64,000 nt of DNA from Prevotella sp. (GTDB lineage Bacteria > Bacteroidota > Bacteroidia > Bacteroidales > Bacteroidaceae), in the NCBI GenBank assembly GCA_017478025.1, contig JAFVGZ010000014.1:1-64000 (forward strand). The letters run 5' to 3'. The notes beneath the pieces were generated by a model. The model saw only the letters and a program-made list of their open reading frames with translations. It was not told the origin of the DNA and made no database searches. The number at the start of each line of letters is the position of its first letter. The stretch's first letter is position 1. Shown here piece after piece: positions 15,081-21,041 of this stretch. A program made the translations under genes and the position numbers.

Positions 15081-15120
15081 CGTATTTGCAGAATTCTCAG
15101 AATATTATTCTGCAAATACG
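15081..15120. promoter_or_regulatory. 14-bp perfect inverted repeat upstream of the cooS-like promoter
   Basis: CGTATTTGCAGAAT and ATTCTGCAAATACG separated by 12 bases. It could end rmuC transcription, but there is no T run, and it abuts the -33 element at 15128, so a regulator site is equally possible. Confidence 0.6.
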
Positions 15121-15257: not shown

Positions 15258-17360
15258 ATGGCAAAAGAAGAATTACATCACCACCATGAGCACCATCACC
15301 ACGACCTCAACGAGCAGTTTGAGGAGGTGTTTTCGGGCAAGAAGACGGATGAGGAAATCCTGGCTCATCAGGCATCCCATGCACATCATCACGACCCCGA
15401 GCACCCACATGTGCATGGTGACACTAAGGATTACATGTCTGCTGTGAACGAGTATCGCAAGACATTCTCAAACAAGCAGAAAGTTATTGAACAGACTCCA
15501 GACCCCGCAGTGCGCGAGATGTTGCTGCGTATGGAGGAGCTGGGCATCGAAACGGTGTTTGACCGCTTTGACAGTCAGCAGCCACAGTGTAACTTCGGCA
15601 TTGCCGGCACGTGTTGTAAGAACTGTTTCATGGGCCCATGCCGCATCACTAAGAAGGCTCCACGCGGCGTATGCGGTGCTGATGCCGACCTGATAGCAGC
15701 GCGCAACCTGCTGCGCCACCTTGCTGCAGGGACTGCAAGTCACGGCGCACGCGGCAGGGCATCGATGTTGGCATTGAAGTATGCTGCTGAGGGTAAAGCT
15801 CCTATAGACATTGAGGGAGAGAAGAAAATCCTGGCAGAAGCAAAGACCTACGGCCTCAACACCGAGGGCAAGAGCGTAAAGGAACTGGCAGGCGAGATTG
15901 CAGACATACTGCTTGAGGACCTTAGCCGCACCGTACCGGGTAAGCACAAGACCATCTACAGCCACGCTCCAAAGGAACGCATAGCCGCATGGGAGAAGGC
16001 TGGCATCATACCCATATCGCCCTATCACGAGGTGTTTGAGTCGCTACACCGCACCACTACGGGCACCGATGGCGACTGGCGCAACGTGATGCAGCAGTTT
16101 CTGCGCACAGGTGTCAGCTTTGCATGGACATCGTGTCTGGGGTCTGGCATAGCGATGGACTGTCTATACGGCTTACCACACCGCAGCACGTCGAAGGTCA
16201 ACCTGGGTGCGCTGAAGAAAGGATGGGTGAACATAGCCGTTCACGGACACTCCCCGCTGCTTATTCGGGAGATTGTGAAACTCGGACAAAGCGACGAGTA
16301 TCAGCAGAAGGCTCGCGAGGCCGGTGCTGAGGGCATACAGTTCTACGGCATCTGCTGCTCAGGACTTAGCGCCATGTACCGCTACGGAGGCGTGATACCA
16401 CTAAGCAATGCCGTTGGTTCTGAACTCGTTTTGGGTACCGGAGCACTGGACCTGTGGGTGGCTGATGTTCAGGATGTATTCCCAACGATAATGGATGTGG
16501 CAAAGTGTTTCCGTACTGTGGTGGTGACAACAAGCGACTCAGCACGTCTGCCAGGGGCCGAGCACTATGGCTTTGACCATGAGCACTCCAATATAGGCCA
16601 AATAAAGGAGTTGGCACAGAAAATCATACTGCGTGCTATTGAGGCTTTTCAGGACCGTCGTGATGTGCCGGTGAAGATACCACAGTATGAGGTGGAAGCC
16701 GAGATGGGATTCTCCGTAGAGTGGGCCGCACAGCACTTTGAGCGTGGTTTACGCGACCTGGCCGATGCCCTGAGAACGGGAAAGATACGCGGCATCGTAA
16801 ATCTCGTGGGCTGTAACAATCCGCGCTTAGTGTATGAGAAGCACATCGTGGAGGCAGCAGAAACACTTCTGAAGAACAATATACTGATACTCACCAACGG
16901 GTGTGCATCGTTTGCGTTGCTAAAGTTAGGCTACTGCTCATCTAAGGCGTTGGAATATACAGGCGATGACCTGCGCAGATTCTGCGAAGAGCACGGCAAC
17001 ATACCCCCTGTATGGCATCTCGGAGAATGCTTGGACAATGCCCGTGCAAGCGGCTTCTTCAACGGTATCAGCGGAGCCTTGGGCATAGCGATAAAGGATT
17101 TGCCGTATGCTTTCATGTCTCCAGAGTGGAGCAACGAGAAAGGTATCTGTGCAGCACTTGCCTTCAGGCTGTTGGGCATGAACTCCTACCACAGCGTATA
17201 TGCCCCAACACAGGGCGCGCCAAACGTGCATGAATTTATGGCAACGGGCACAAAACCCATCCTTGGCTCTGAGATGGTAGTGAATGTTGATACGCAGGAG
17301 CTGGCTCAGCAGCTGGTGGATGACCTCAACGCAAAGAGAAAGGCGTTGGGATGGAGCTAA
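15258..17360 (+). CDS. divergent nickel carbon-monoxide dehydrogenase-like protein (CooS family)
   Basis: A 700-residue homologue of the catalytic subunit of anaerobic Ni-Fe CO dehydrogenase, about 60 longer than usual because of an N-terminal extension with 16 histidines in the first 53 residues. D- and B-cluster cysteines are all present: C111, C119, C120, C123, C128 and C139 ('CCKNCFMGPCRI'). Around the C-cluster the HGHSP motif (329-333), C366/C367, C519, C549, C591 and the lysine in SNEKG are kept, but where the family has Cys in DVQC this protein has Asp406 (DVQD), and CTGNE is CSGLS. Spacing from 406 to 519 and 549 equals that of characterised enzymes (113 and 30), so the loss is not an alignment shift. 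It may have altered or different chemistry. First gene of a six-gene operon. Confidence 0.88.
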   Translation: MAKEELHHHHEHHHHDLNEQFEEVFSGKKTDEEILAHQASHAHHHDPEHPHVHGDTKDYMSAVNEYRKTFSNKQKVIEQTPDPAVREMLLRMEELGIETVFDRFDSQQPQCNFGIAGTCCKNCFMGPCRITKKAPRGVCGADADLIAARNLLRHLAAGTASHGARGRASMLALKYAAEGKAPIDIEGEKKILAEAKTYGLNTEGKSVKELAGEIADILLEDLSRTVPGKHKTIYSHAPKERIAAWEKAGIIPISPYHEVFESLHRTTTGTDGDWRNVMQQFLRTGVSFAWTSCLGSGIAMDCLYGLPHRSTSKVNLGALKKGWVNIAVHGHSPLLIREIVKLGQSDEYQQKAREAGAEGIQFYGICCSGLSAMYRYGGVIPLSNAVGSELVLGTGALDLWVADVQDVFPTIMDVAKCFRTVVVTTSDSARLPGAEHYGFDHEHSNIGQIKELAQKIILRAIEAFQDRRDVPVKIPQYEVEAEMGFSVEWAAQHFERGLRDLADALRTGKIRGIVNLVGCNNPRLVYEKHIVEAAETLLKNNILILTNGCASFALLKLGYCSSKALEYTGDDLRRFCEEHGNIPPVWHLGECLDNARASGFFNGISGALGIAIKDLPYAFMSPEWSNEKGICAALAFRLLGMNSYHSVYAPTQGAPNVHEFMATGTKPILGSEMVVNVDTQELAQQLVDDLNAKRKALGWS

Positions 17361-17413
17361 TTCAAAATTCAGAATTAATAATGCAAAATTCAGAATTCAT
17401 AATGCATAATTTT
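17361..17413. repeat. 7-bp-period intergenic repeat (CAGAATT family)
   Basis: Heptads AAAATTC, AGAATTA, ATAATGC and similar separate the cooS-like gene from the binding-protein gene. An ATG at 17351 would translate through it, giving a repeat-like leader, so the start at 17414 is preferred. Confidence 0.75.
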
Positions 17414-18310
17414 ATGAGAAGAATATATTATTTATTGTTTGTCGCAGCGCTGGCACTCGCGGTGTCATGTGGCAAGAAAGAGAGTAAGGACGTTGTGCGC
17501 ATAGCATATCTTCCTATCACGCACGCCCTGCCACTGGTTGAGTTGCAGGATGCGGAGGGCGTAGAGGTGGAATTAGTAAGGTACGGCTCATGGCCGGAGT
17601 TGCTTGATGCCCTCAACACGGGGCGTGTGGATGGAGCCAGTGTCCTGATAGAACTGGCTATGGCTGCAAAGGCGCAGGGCATAGGTCTGACCGCCGTAGC
17701 ACTGGGACACACCGATGGTAACGTGATAGTGGTGTCTGAGGGCATCAACTCCGTAAAAGATTTGAAAGGCAAGACGTTTGCTATACCCCACAGAGCATCG
17801 TCTCACCACATACTTTTGCAAGAGGCTTTAGCCAAAGGAGGCTTGACCATAAGCGACGTTAACGTGGTGGAACTTGCTCCGCCAGAGATGCCAAGTGCTC
17901 TGTCTAGAGGCCAAATTGCAGGCTATTGCGTGGCAGAACCGTTTGGAGCGATGGGTCTGAAAGTGGCTAATGGCAAGGTGCTTTACAGGAGTGAAGAACT
18001 ATGGCCCAACTCCATCTGCTGCGGATTGGTGGTAAATGATGCATCATACAAGCAGAAAAAAGAACTCATAGACAAAGTGATAACGGCATACCGCAGTAAC
18101 GGCAAACATCTGGAGGACAAGGACAAGGCTCTCACCGTGGCAAAACAGATACTGAAACAGCCCGACGATGTGCTGCAGCAATCGCTGAAATGGATTGACT
18201 ACTCAAAACTTGACATCACCGAAGAAGCCTATTCCAATCTCTCCTCAAAGGTAAAGCAATACGGAATACTTGACAATCCACCTTCCTTTGATGAGTTTGT
18301 TGCAAAGTAA
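17414..18310 (+). CDS. ABC transporter substrate-binding lipoprotein (NitT/TauT type)
   Basis: A 298-residue periplasmic binding protein of the NrtA/SsuA/TauA group. The start at 17414 gives a lipoprotein signal (RRIYYLLFVAALALAVSCGK) whose cysteine would anchor it in the membrane. The mature protein has the family pattern: VVRIAYLPITHALPLVEL at the first strand, 'GSWPELLDALNTGRVDGA', 'SVKDLKGKTFAIPHRASSHH' and 'GQIAGYCVAEPFGAMGLKV'. Members bind small anions or organic N/S compounds, including nitrate, taurine, sulfonates and thiamine precursors; the ligand here is unknown. It is linked to the permease 12 bases downstream and to the cooS-like gene upstream. Confidence 0.85.
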   Translation: MRRIYYLLFVAALALAVSCGKKESKDVVRIAYLPITHALPLVELQDAEGVEVELVRYGSWPELLDALNTGRVDGASVLIELAMAAKAQGIGLTAVALGHTDGNVIVVSEGINSVKDLKGKTFAIPHRASSHHILLQEALAKGGLTISDVNVVELAPPEMPSALSRGQIAGYCVAEPFGAMGLKVANGKVLYRSEELWPNSICCGLVVNDASYKQKKELIDKVITAYRSNGKHLEDKDKALTVAKQILKQPDDVLQQSLKWIDYSKLDITEEAYSNLSSKVKQYGILDNPPSFDEFVAK

Positions 18311-18322
18311 TATACTCCGAAA

Positions 18323-19075
18323 ATGAAGACAGTTCTATATACAACAGCCTCATTTGTGCTGGCAATAGCGTTATGGCAGCTGGCCATCATAGTGGGCAAC
18401 TTTGATGAAGCACTCCTGCCCTCGCCGCTGAAGGTGGTGCAGGCGCTGGTGGAGATAGGCTCAAACGGCGTACTGCTGGACGGTATTGCCAGCAGTATGT
18501 ACCGCTTTGTGATTGGCTACCTCATCTCGGTTGTGTTTGGAGTGGCTGTGGGTCTGCTGATTGGCAATGTGAATATACTGTTCCGTTTGGTCAATCCGGT
18601 GGTGCAAATGATACGCCCCATCGCCCCCGTAGCATGGATGCCCATCATCGTACTGCTCATCGGCATAGGCGATGCACCGGCTATAGCCATTATTTTCCTC
18701 GCCGGATTCTTCCCCGTGATGCTCACCACTGCAAGTGCGACGCACAAGGTTGATGACATCTATCTCAAGGTAGCAAGAAACTATGGCATCTCACACACAA
18801 AGACAGTATTTCAGATTATACTACCCGCGATATTCCCACAGATAGCAAACTCGCTGCATATAGCCCTCGGCACTTCGTGGATCTTTCTCGTATCAGGCGA
18901 GATGGTCGGTACACAATCCGGCCTGGGATACATGATAATAGATGCCCGCAATAACTTGCGCACAGATATTCTGCTTGCCACAATGTTGGTAATCGGCGTG
19001 ATAGGCTTTGTGCTTGACATACTTATAGGGCGATTTGAGCTGAGTGTGCTACGTCTGTGGGGGCGGAAAGAGTAA
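18323..19075 (+). CDS. ABC transporter permease (SsuC/TauC type)
   Basis: A 250-residue inner-membrane permease with about six transmembrane helices. The EAA loop that docks the ATPase is visible at about residues 150-170 (VARNYGISHTKTVFQIILPA). Motifs 'RPIAPVAWMPIIVLLIGIGD' and 'GTSWIFLVSGEMVGTQSGLG' are typical of the NitT/TauT permease family. It follows the binding protein by 12 bases and precedes the ATPase, so the three form a complete importer of which the solute is not known. Confidence 0.9.
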   Translation: MKTVLYTTASFVLAIALWQLAIIVGNFDEALLPSPLKVVQALVEIGSNGVLLDGIASSMYRFVIGYLISVVFGVAVGLLIGNVNILFRLVNPVVQMIRPIAPVAWMPIIVLLIGIGDAPAIAIIFLAGFFPVMLTTASATHKVDDIYLKVARNYGISHTKTVFQIILPAIFPQIANSLHIALGTSWIFLVSGEMVGTQSGLGYMIIDARNNLRTDILLATMLVIGVIGFVLDILIGRFELSVLRLWGRKE

Positions 19076-19117: not shown

Positions 19118-19891
19118 ATGGCTTATATAAAAGTAGAACATCTGAAAAAAGACTTCCCCATAAAGAACGGCGTGCAGCATGTATTGGGCGATGTCAACTT
19201 TGAGATTGAGAAAGGAGAGTTCATCTGTCTGCTTGGCTTCTCGGGCTGCGGCAAATCTACCATCCTCAATATCCTTGCAGGCTTTGAGAAGCCAACGGGG
19301 GGCACCGTAACGATAGGAGGAGAACCTGTGACCGGTCCTTCTCCACGCAACATCATGATATTCCAGCATTACGGCTTGCTGCCCTGGAAGAATGTGCAGA
19401 AGAATGTAGAACTCGGACTTGAGACGCACCATCTGAAGGAATCAGAACGTAAGGAGAAGGCGCTGCAGTACATCGAACTGGTAGGACTAAAGGGATTTGA
19501 GAACCAATTCCCCGCACAACTATCAGGAGGACAGCAGCAACGTGTGGCAATAGCACGCGGTCTGGCCGTCAATCCGGAATGTATATTCATGGATGAGCCC
19601 TTCGGAGCCCTTGATCCTATCATCCGCAACAAACTGCAGGATGACCTGCTGGGCATCGTAAAGGAACAGAATAAGACCGTAGTGTTTGTGACTCACGACA
19701 TTGAGGAGGCTGTCTATCTGGCTGACCGTGTATTCGTCATGAAGTCATCTCCCGGACACATCGAAAAGATATACGATATACGCCTGCCAAAGCCAAGGGG
19801 ACGCAACACTCCCGCTACGCTGCAGTACAGAAAGAAGATATACGAAAAGCTATACTCCATACAGGAAGAACAGGTGGAGTACGTAATTTAA
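19118..19891 (+). CDS. ABC transporter ATP-binding protein (SsuB/TauB type)
   Basis: A 257-residue ATPase that powers the importer. Walker A is at about residues 42-49 (GFSGCGKST), the signature LSGGQQQR at about 135-142, Walker B in CIFMDEPFGALDP and the switch histidine in VFVTHDIEEA. The C-terminal part matches SsuB/TauB proteins. It lacks a fused extra domain. Gene order binding protein, permease, ATPase is standard, although here it is embedded in a cooS-like operon. Confidence 0.92.
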   Translation: MAYIKVEHLKKDFPIKNGVQHVLGDVNFEIEKGEFICLLGFSGCGKSTILNILAGFEKPTGGTVTIGGEPVTGPSPRNIMIFQHYGLLPWKNVQKNVELGLETHHLKESERKEKALQYIELVGLKGFENQFPAQLSGGQQQRVAIARGLAVNPECIFMDEPFGALDPIIRNKLQDDLLGIVKEQNKTVVFVTHDIEEAVYLADRVFVMKSSPGHIEKIYDIRLPKPRGRNTPATLQYRKKIYEKLYSIQEEQVEYVI

Positions 19892-19936: not shown

Positions 19937-20452
19937 ATGAGAACAAATCAACCTACAGGTATTGCTACCACCATACCATTCACCGACATAAGGGCATATC
20001 TGCTCGCAACAGCCTTTATCATCGGCAATCTTCTGTTGCCACAGTTGTGCCATCTCATTCCTCAGGGCGGACTCATATTCCTGCCTATATATTTCTTCAC
20101 GCTCATAGCAGCCTATCGCTACGGATGGCAGGTGGGCATCCTTACCGCAGTAGGGTCGCCTATCATCAACAGTTTGCTCTTTGGAATGCCTCCTGCAACG
20201 GCGTTGCCAGCTATATTACTCAAATCTGTTGCGCTGGCTCTTGCCGCTGCCTATATATCCCGAAAGCGTGGAGGGGCTGTTACTTTAGCTGCACTTGCAC
20301 TTGTTATCTTGTTATATCAAGGTGTGGGAATGATAGCAGAGTTTCTCGCTTATGACCTGCAGCACGCCCTTCAGGATGTGCGTTTAGGCTATCCGGGACT
20401 CATCGTACAGCTCTTCGGAGGATACCTGTTGCTGAAATGGTTGCAAAAATAA
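19937..20452 (+). CDS. ECF S-component-like membrane protein
   Basis: A 171-residue very hydrophobic protein with five or six predicted helices (for example YLLATAFIIGNLLLPQL, 'GLIFLPIYFFTLIAAYRYGW', 'LPAILLKSVALALAAAYISR', 'LALVILLYQGVGMIAEFLAY'). Length, helix number and the 'FLPIYFFTLIAAYRYGWQVG' region resemble substrate-specific S components of energy-coupling-factor transporters, which bind vitamins or metals. No ECF ATPase or T component is encoded nearby; it would need a shared module elsewhere. It lies 45 bases after the ABC ATPase gene and 22 bases before the fmdE-like gene, within the cooS-like operon. Confidence 0.6.
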   Translation: MRTNQPTGIATTIPFTDIRAYLLATAFIIGNLLLPQLCHLIPQGGLIFLPIYFFTLIAAYRYGWQVGILTAVGSPIINSLLFGMPPATALPAILLKSVALALAAAYISRKRGGAVTLAALALVILLYQGVGMIAEFLAYDLQHALQDVRLGYPGLIVQLFGGYLLLKWLQK

Positions 20453-20474
20453 TTGATAACAGAGGTTGACAACA

Positions 20475-21041
20475 ATGATTGGCAATAATGTTTTGACTTC
20501 ATTCCAATTGCCCGAGTCGCTCTATGCTGATGACGTTAATGCCATTCTTCGCGTCACGCAAGAGCGGTTCGGCATTAGGGAATGGCGGTTGGTAGTTCTC
20601 ACCAACGAGATACACGGGCACCTTGGCATCTACTCCACCATAGGAGTGAAGATGGGACTCAGAGCGAAGGAGATTCTTGAGGCTGAGGGGTATGCAGACG
20701 AACCTTCAATTATCTCCTATGCCGGCAGCCACCCACCCATCAGTTGCATGAACGATGGCCTGCAGATCAGTACGGGTTCTACCCTTGGGCACGGCTTAAT
20801 AAGCATTTCAGATACAGGCGAAGCTAATCCATCAGCATTAATCAGCTATGTCAAAGGCAAACAAAACATATCCTTCCGTATAGAACTGAAGGATGTATAT
20901 CGCAAACAAATAGAAAAAGATATACTTAAAGGCATCAACATGTATGGACACACGGAGCCTTACTGGACTTATGTAAGGCAGCTTGCCCTAAAGTATTGGA
21001 GCACCTGGGACCGCAGGGAAATCTTCACGATTAAAGCTTAA
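20475..21041 (+). CDS. FmdE-family protein
   Basis: A 188-residue member of the FmdE family, named after a gene in the molybdenum formylmethanofuran dehydrogenase operon of methanogens. The pattern is clear: a helical N-terminus, EIHGHLGIYSTIGVKMGLRA at about residues 46-65, and 'CMNDGLQISTGSTLGHG' at about 94-110, which in the family forms a metal-binding site. The usual HGHxCPG motif is HGHLGIY here, so its cysteine is missing. Start: ATG at 20475 rather than TTG at 20466. Role in this organism, which should lack methanofuran, is unknown; a metal- or formyl-related step linked to the cooS-like protein is a guess from context. Confidence 0.75.
   Translation: MIGNNVLTSFQLPESLYADDVNAILRVTQERFGIREWRLVVLTNEIHGHLGIYSTIGVKMGLRAKEILEAEGYADEPSIISYAGSHPPISCMNDGLQISTGSTLGHGLISISDTGEANPSALISYVKGKQNISFRIELKDVYRKQIEKDILKGINMYGHTEPYWTYVRQLALKYWSTWDRREIFTIKA

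Follow-up and report, generated by a model that had tools for sequence, protein, structure and literature searches.

A group B-1 carbon monoxide dehydrogenase-like protein in Prevotella sp., its dedicated importer and a possible role in sulfur acquisition

Clade B enzymes and the protein encoded in the window

Among the CO dehydrogenases (CODHs) of clade B, Inoue et al. (2019; PMC6344411) describe a group, B-1, that carries Asp or Glu at the position of the second C-cluster cysteine. Its members are also reported to have an N-terminal His-rich region and neighboring ABC transporter genes of the NitT/TauT type, and a function in Ni import was proposed for these ABC genes. The published B-1 reference is an enzyme of Butyrivibrio. 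According to a survey of the human gut (PMC11338639), clade B is the second most frequent CODH clade, representing 493 of 1,380 genes. A 2026 eLife survey (PMC13056359) reports ABC genes in 64% of the clade B operons and an almost complete absence of maturases; it states that the biochemical characterization of any clade B CODH is still awaited and that the function of the clade could not be deduced from the genomic survey. Sequences with altered C-cluster cysteines were excluded from a 2026 marine survey (PMC13240472), and PMC7000372 deals with another CODH-like gene. A further related case is CooS-V of Carboxydothermus (clade D-1), in which the first C-cluster cysteine is replaced by Glu and which was reported to contain a hybrid-cluster-like Fe/S/O cluster and to have no CO/CO2 activity (PMC9311411). 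For transport, the closest described system is a TauABC-like operon of Staphylococcus aureus, NWMN_0115-0119, which belongs to the CymR cysteine regulon, is repressed by sulfide, like cysK, and contains a putative NAD-dependent formate dehydrogenase and a hypothetical gene, whereas a CODH is not among the genes described (PMC5480029). In PMC3128592, SAOUHSC_00136-00138 are given as ATPase, substrate-binding protein (SBP) and permease.

The stretch analyzed here, referred to as the window, comprises 64,000 nucleotides of Prevotella sp. DNA. At 15258..17360 on the forward strand, it contains an ORF with an ATG start and zero internal stops that encodes a CooS-type CODH-like protein of 700 amino acids. 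This protein matches the NCBIfam model of the anaerobic CODH catalytic subunit (TIGR01702) with 495.1 bits (cut-off 478), and the Pfam Prismane/CODH model with 465.4 bits. By sequence, the closest solved structures are the Thermococcus AM4 CODH (6t7j, 442 bits) and Carboxydothermus CODH-IV (6elq, 418 bits). The former is also the top Foldseek match of the AlphaFold model (TM 0.94 by target length), which has a pLDDT of 83 and is disordered at residues 1-29 and 36-57. At 15081-15120, between an rmuC-like gene and the CODH gene, two 14-bp arms separated by 12 nt form a perfect inverted repeat, a candidate terminator or regulator site.

The preliminary description of this locus covered 16241-17030, which corresponds to about residues 329-591, and proposed that an Asp replaces a C-cluster cysteine. 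This was confirmed: in HMMER alignments D406 lies opposite the Cys of the DVQC or DYQC motif in all five solved CODHs that were aligned. In the alignment with 7err, a CODH-II construct, D406, C367, S371 and H331 correspond to C353, C315, E319 and H281, respectively. Assuming a tag of 20 residues in 7err, these positions are C333, C295, E299 and H261 in CODH-II numbering. The cysteines C111, C119, C120, C123, C128, C139, C366, C367, C519, C549 and C591 are all found in the translation, including those proposed for the B- and D-clusters (C111 to C139), and C111-X7-C119-C120 forms a type II D-cluster motif. The His ligand, however, aligns with H331 and not, as had been suggested, with H329. Similarly, the change from CTGNE to CSGLS noted previously is present, but it includes the loss of Glu299, replaced by S371, which had been overlooked, as had the His-rich N-terminus and the downstream ABC, ECF-like and FmdE-like genes described below. 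The set of one His and five Cys that ligates the Ni-CODH C-cluster is therefore incomplete in this protein, with D406 at the second Cys, whereas the His and the other four Cys are kept. The acid-base His and Lys are H162 and K628, and the N-terminus is His-rich, with 16 His among the first 79 residues, at about residues 7-53. As judged from these alignments, the protein retains the CODH scaffold, the cysteines of the B- and D-clusters, both catalytic residues (His and Lys) and, with one exception, the ligands of the C-cluster.

The protein thus shows the three published hallmarks of group B-1, namely the acid at the second Cys, the His-rich N-terminus and the adjacent NitT/TauT ABC genes, as well as the type II D-cluster and the acid-base His/Lys pair that are also B-1 features; no difference at the protein level was noted from the B-1 features described in PMC6344411. 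Its sequence places this CODH-like enzyme in group B-1 of clade B, an assignment made by published hallmarks, with trees (described below) that hold no named clade B reference such as WP_026514536. The variant is therefore not an unrecognized one, but already in print as a group. New here are the clade-wide loss of Glu299, which was not found in the passages of PMC6344411 consulted, the context of sulfur genes and an S-box, the strict association with a single SBP subfamily and the presence of ECF-like and FmdE genes in Bacteroidales. A link to sulfur was not found in the text of PMC6344411 or PMC13056359, nor by title or abstract among the open-access papers listed, supplements aside; it may be printed elsewhere.

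Residue pattern and phylogeny of the acid-type clade

Relatives were gathered from named contigs (15 loci) and from whole-genome searches; L012, which is the same locus as L100, was dropped from the residue and neighbor counts. The distinct full-length sequences with at least 50% identity number 53, counting that of the window; 51 of them have Asp at position 406 and 2 have Glu. Position 371, equivalent to Glu299 of CODH-II, is occupied by Ser in 49 sequences and by Ala in the other 4. H162, H329, H331, K628 and the remaining cluster cysteines, C367 among them, are invariant in all 53, and all possess a His-rich N-terminus with 3 to 20 His. The more distant CODH rows differ from this pattern, since Cys406 is present in 32/32 and position 371 is Glu in 26, Gln in 3 and Asp in 3. 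In a 59-row tree the acid-type sequences group as a single clade (35 rows, support 100/100), and they do so again in an 85-row tree calculated by a quicker method (53 rows, SH-aLRT 100). The suggestion of a distinct clade was thus borne out, and the Asp is shared across the branch, with Glu as the occasional substitute. Because the acid is found in all 53 sequences and these form one clade, D406 is not the one-off mutation that Cys in close relatives would have indicated. The loss of the carboxylate at the Glu299 site and the gain of one at the Cys333 site have consequently both occurred within the same clade.

The sister group consists of L101, L159, L160, L176 and L177, all with Cys406 and Glu371. 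These sequences share 37-39% identity with the window protein and 80-91% with one another, so that they represent one lineage; the sister relationship is less sure because long branches meet at that node. They resemble group B-4, described as having a complete C-cluster motif, in their Cys406 and Glu371, the lack of a His-rich tail and the same ABC neighbors, and are candidate B-4 members by motif, in a comparison that includes no named B-4 sequences. CooS-V shares with the window protein the CODH scaffold (Foldseek TM 0.84 by query length) and the exchange of one C-cluster Cys for a carboxylate, but the exchange is at the first Cys in CooS-V and at the second in the window protein. In addition, the acid-base His kept in the latter is a Tyr in clade D-1 (PMC6344411, Table 2).

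CODHs are rare in Bacteroidales, where the cut-off is passed by 3 of 393 genomes, and the other two proteins (L017 and L018) carry Cys. Two genomes contain two clade B copies each: G396 (L004 and L007) and G404 (L097 and L098). In L158 and L175 the CODH is present as two adjacent ORFs, which may reflect a frameshift or an assembly error. ORFs of the resolvase/recombinase type, of about 540-570 amino acids, flank L078-L081 and L173 (as identified by a Pfam scan of L078), and these flanks may indicate mobility of clade B loci.

A dedicated importer and its neighboring genes

The CODH gene of the window is followed by five genes on the same strand. These encode a substrate-binding lipoprotein of the NitT/TauT/SsuA type (NMT1_2; 17351..18310, with the true start probably downstream of 17351), an ABC permease (18323..19075, BPD_transp_1), an ABC ATPase (19118..19891, assigned by profile matches), a small membrane protein weakly resembling an ECF S-component (19937..20452; Pfam 20.8 bits, cut-off 30.7) and an FmdE-family protein (20466..21041; PF02663 57.9 bits, cut-off 22.9). 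The ECF-like gene is conserved in 6 and the FmdE gene in 5 Bacteroidales loci, window included. Both lie upstream of the CODH gene in L004 and L006, and in L007 the ECF-like gene is located between the CODH and the ABC genes. A search with the FmdE protein returned 2gvi as the only credibly scoring match. Other loci encode CbiM-type transporters, identified by NCBIfam or Pfam models in L001, L008, L011, L137 and L140; the NCBIfam models used do not separate Ni from Co transporters. In L001, L008 and L011 they are encoded after the ABC genes, and CbiM-CbiQ is found inside the L137 operon; L138 has the same layout as L137, as seen from gene order only. In the window, the ECF-like and FmdE genes are present instead of a CbiM-type transporter.

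One dedicated importer of the NitT/TauT type accompanies the clade B CODH gene. The ABC genes are contiguous with the CODH gene in 56 of the 60 loci counted. Of the four others, L007 and L009 have ABC genes at a short distance, L142 is without any and L102 is a fragment. L012, which is outside this count, lacks both ABC and sulfur genes next to its CODH; L097 was dropped because no CODH ORF was kept, and L143, L144, L162 and L163 were left out as Cys-type CODHs outside the clade with neither ABC nor sulfur gene. In one class, the importer SBP was detected (E<=1e-40) in 21 of 391 genomes, and all 21 carry a clade B or sister CODH. Such a CODH is found in 23 of these genomes, and the two without an SBP match are G727, in which the SBP is split into two ORFs, and G711, which contains a short CODH piece. 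The SBP also appears as two adjacent ORFs in L087 and L175, perhaps again through a frameshift or an assembly error.

The nearest solved structure to the SBP is that of S. aureus 3un6, with 309 bits versus 75 for SsuA. It is also the first-ranked Foldseek match (38% over 282 columns), followed by SsuA and TauA, and the SsuA_fam match of the window SBP is below the cut-off. We take 3un6 to be the SBP of the S. aureus TauABC-like operon (SAOUHSC_00137/NWMN_0117); if so, the SBP of that operon is close to the one of the window. H58, H120, C223 and C224 are invariant in 25/25 aligned SBPs. The 3un6 structure contains zinc, and the invariant His and Cys-Cys residues would suit a metal site.

Genes of sulfur metabolism occur around part of these loci. 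Neighbors were labeled by BLAST to profile-scanned members; CysK, MetY and PatB passed the NCBIfam cut-offs where scanned, and the cystathionine-type (CGL and CBL) equivalogs were below theirs. In all five sister loci, CysK is directly upstream in the order CysK-CODH-SBP, which in L176 extends to CysK-CODH-SBP-permease-ATPase-CGL-CBL. Within the acid-type clade, the orders are RidA-CGL-CBL-CODH-ABC (L082, L086 and L161), RidA-CGL-PatB-CODH-ABC (L083 and L085, with L175 similar but with split ORFs), CGL-CODH-ABC (L174) and ABC-CODH followed after one or two genes by MetY-CysK (L091 and L157). L003, a Prevotellaceae locus close to the window, has the order MetY-CODH-ABC-ECF-FmdE, and MetY is further from the CODH-ABC unit in L007. 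A CysK-, MetY-, CGL-, CBL- or PatB-type gene on the same strand and at most two genes from the unit was found in 14 of the 60 loci, or in 4 of 17 CODH clusters at 80% identity, a clustering that leaves out L102, L103, L158 and L175. The window and the other 13 clusters have no such gene at this distance, and most of the loci nearest to the window are also without a sulfur neighbor, L003 being the exception.

Sulfur genes occupy 22/224 near slots versus 14/374 far slots (Fisher p 0.0026, calculated on loci that are not independent). Within about 16 kb, they were found in 16/56 acid-type and 5/5 sister loci, versus 0/20 windows around more distant CODHs and 2/20 random 16-kb windows. As 2 of the 20 random windows were also positive, the background rate is poorly known, and the simulated chance of at least 4 clusters is P 0.003 at the random-window rate and 0.11 at a threefold rate. 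An Rfam scan of the window gave no family at the gathering threshold, and that of 56 further clade B or sister loci (L004, L171, L172, L173 and L175 being left out) gave one S-box and one T-box. The S-box, a SAM riboswitch (RF00162, 89.5 bits), is located in L089 on the strand of the CODH ORF and 211 nt before it, in the gap that separates this ORF from the gene upstream, with no ORF kept in between; the His-rich start then follows. Found in 1/57 loci scanned, it could be a chance occurrence. The T-box leader (L136:9721-9970) is situated before a CGL-type gene oriented divergently to the clade B CODH gene.

Possible functions of clade B

The clade is known and the observation of an acid at its C-cluster is correct; a function in sulfur acquisition is only moderately supported. 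We lean towards the reading that clade B is no longer part of CO metabolism and works in sulfur acquisition, to which we give slightly less than an even chance. The importer would bring a small sulfur-containing compound into the cell, and the CODH-like enzyme would split or reduce it at the modified cluster, by a two-electron reduction or a bond cleavage. The Asp would provide one iron of an otherwise C-cluster-like site with a hard oxygen ligand, low-potential electrons would reach this site through the B- and D-clusters, and the sulfide released would be passed to CysK, MetY or transsulfuration enzymes. A continuing requirement of the cluster for Ni (or Co) is suggested by the His-rich tail and by the CbiM-type transporters next to several relatives. 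By analogy with the importer's nearest structures, sulfonates or other small sulfur anions are candidate substrates. The substrate and the metal are the weakest steps of this mechanism. The earlier idea that the enzyme catalyzes something else is partly supported, and it gains from the gene context and not from D406 alone. For the earlier proposal that the Asp would change or abolish CO oxidation, CooS-V provides an analogue at a different ligand. The window protein scores above the CODH equivalog cut-off, so that it would be annotated as a CO dehydrogenase and might enter tallies of CO use. Such tallies would mislead if the branch functions in sulfur acquisition, in which case the CODH scaffold would have found a new use.

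Several observations argue against sulfur acquisition: 13 of 17 clusters are without a sulfur neighbor, siroheme reductases are not depleted, and the invariant SBP residues, the zinc-bound 3un6 structure and the interpretation of Inoue et al. (PMC6344411) favor a metal importer. The last of these would also fit a genuine Ni-CODH whose C-cluster has an Asp ligand; such an enzyme would interconvert CO and CO2, perhaps slowly, and pass electrons to ferredoxin while the importer and the His tail supply Ni. The TIGR01702 score, the conservation of H162 and K628 in a site with a single changed ligand, the His-rich N-terminus of all 53 sequences and the CbiM-type transporters adjoining five scanned loci are consistent with this, but the second Cys and Glu299 are missing across the clade, the own genome is without ACS, maturases are almost absent from clade B operons (PMC13056359) and the CysK, MetY and cystathionine-type neighbors are left unexplained, so that we consider it unlikely. 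Less probable still is a Ni-free, hybrid-cluster-like Fe/S/O enzyme that reduces N-O or other oxidized small molecules under stress. The precedent of CooS-V speaks for it; however, the change in clade B is at the second Cys and not at the first, where C367 is conserved throughout, the window protein scores 20.2 bits with the HCP model TIGR01703, far under its cut-off of 360.8, and the CbiM neighbors and His tail point to a need for Ni or Co. A degenerated, non-catalytic CODH kept as nickel store or chaperone would account for the His-rich tail and the lost ligand, but the B- and D-cluster cysteines, the remaining C-cluster ligands and the catalytic His and Lys are invariant, and Asp406 is exchanged only for Glu. 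Such strict conservation does not fit decay, and we regard this explanation as very improbable.

The sulfur-acquisition reading can be taken further. SsuD and TauD represent a monooxygenase/dioxygenase route for sulfonate sulfur. Instead of acting on CO, clade B might be a NiFe-S enzyme that serves sulfur assimilation under anaerobic conditions, obtaining sulfide from a sulfonate or another small sulfur compound imported by its own ABC transporter, and this specific version is doubtful at present. To the same limited degree, it might be the O2-independent counterpart to the SsuD/TauD route.

Two further roles were considered and rejected. Participation in a Wood-Ljungdahl (CODH/ACS) pathway is not supported, as no PF03598 was detected in the own genome (84.68% complete); an ACS gene is present in 6/36 clade B or sister genomes, weakly in G718. 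The simple model of a replacement of the siroheme sulfite reductase was rejected because PF01077 is not depleted in clade B or sister genomes (15/36) with respect to 40 comparison genomes (10/40), which were chosen by the authors: 20 of them had no match, and the other 20 carry more distant CODHs. The own genome itself encodes a protein with two PF01077 (siroheme reductase) matches, located at G000:C31:15346-16425 in an open frame of 801 amino acids.
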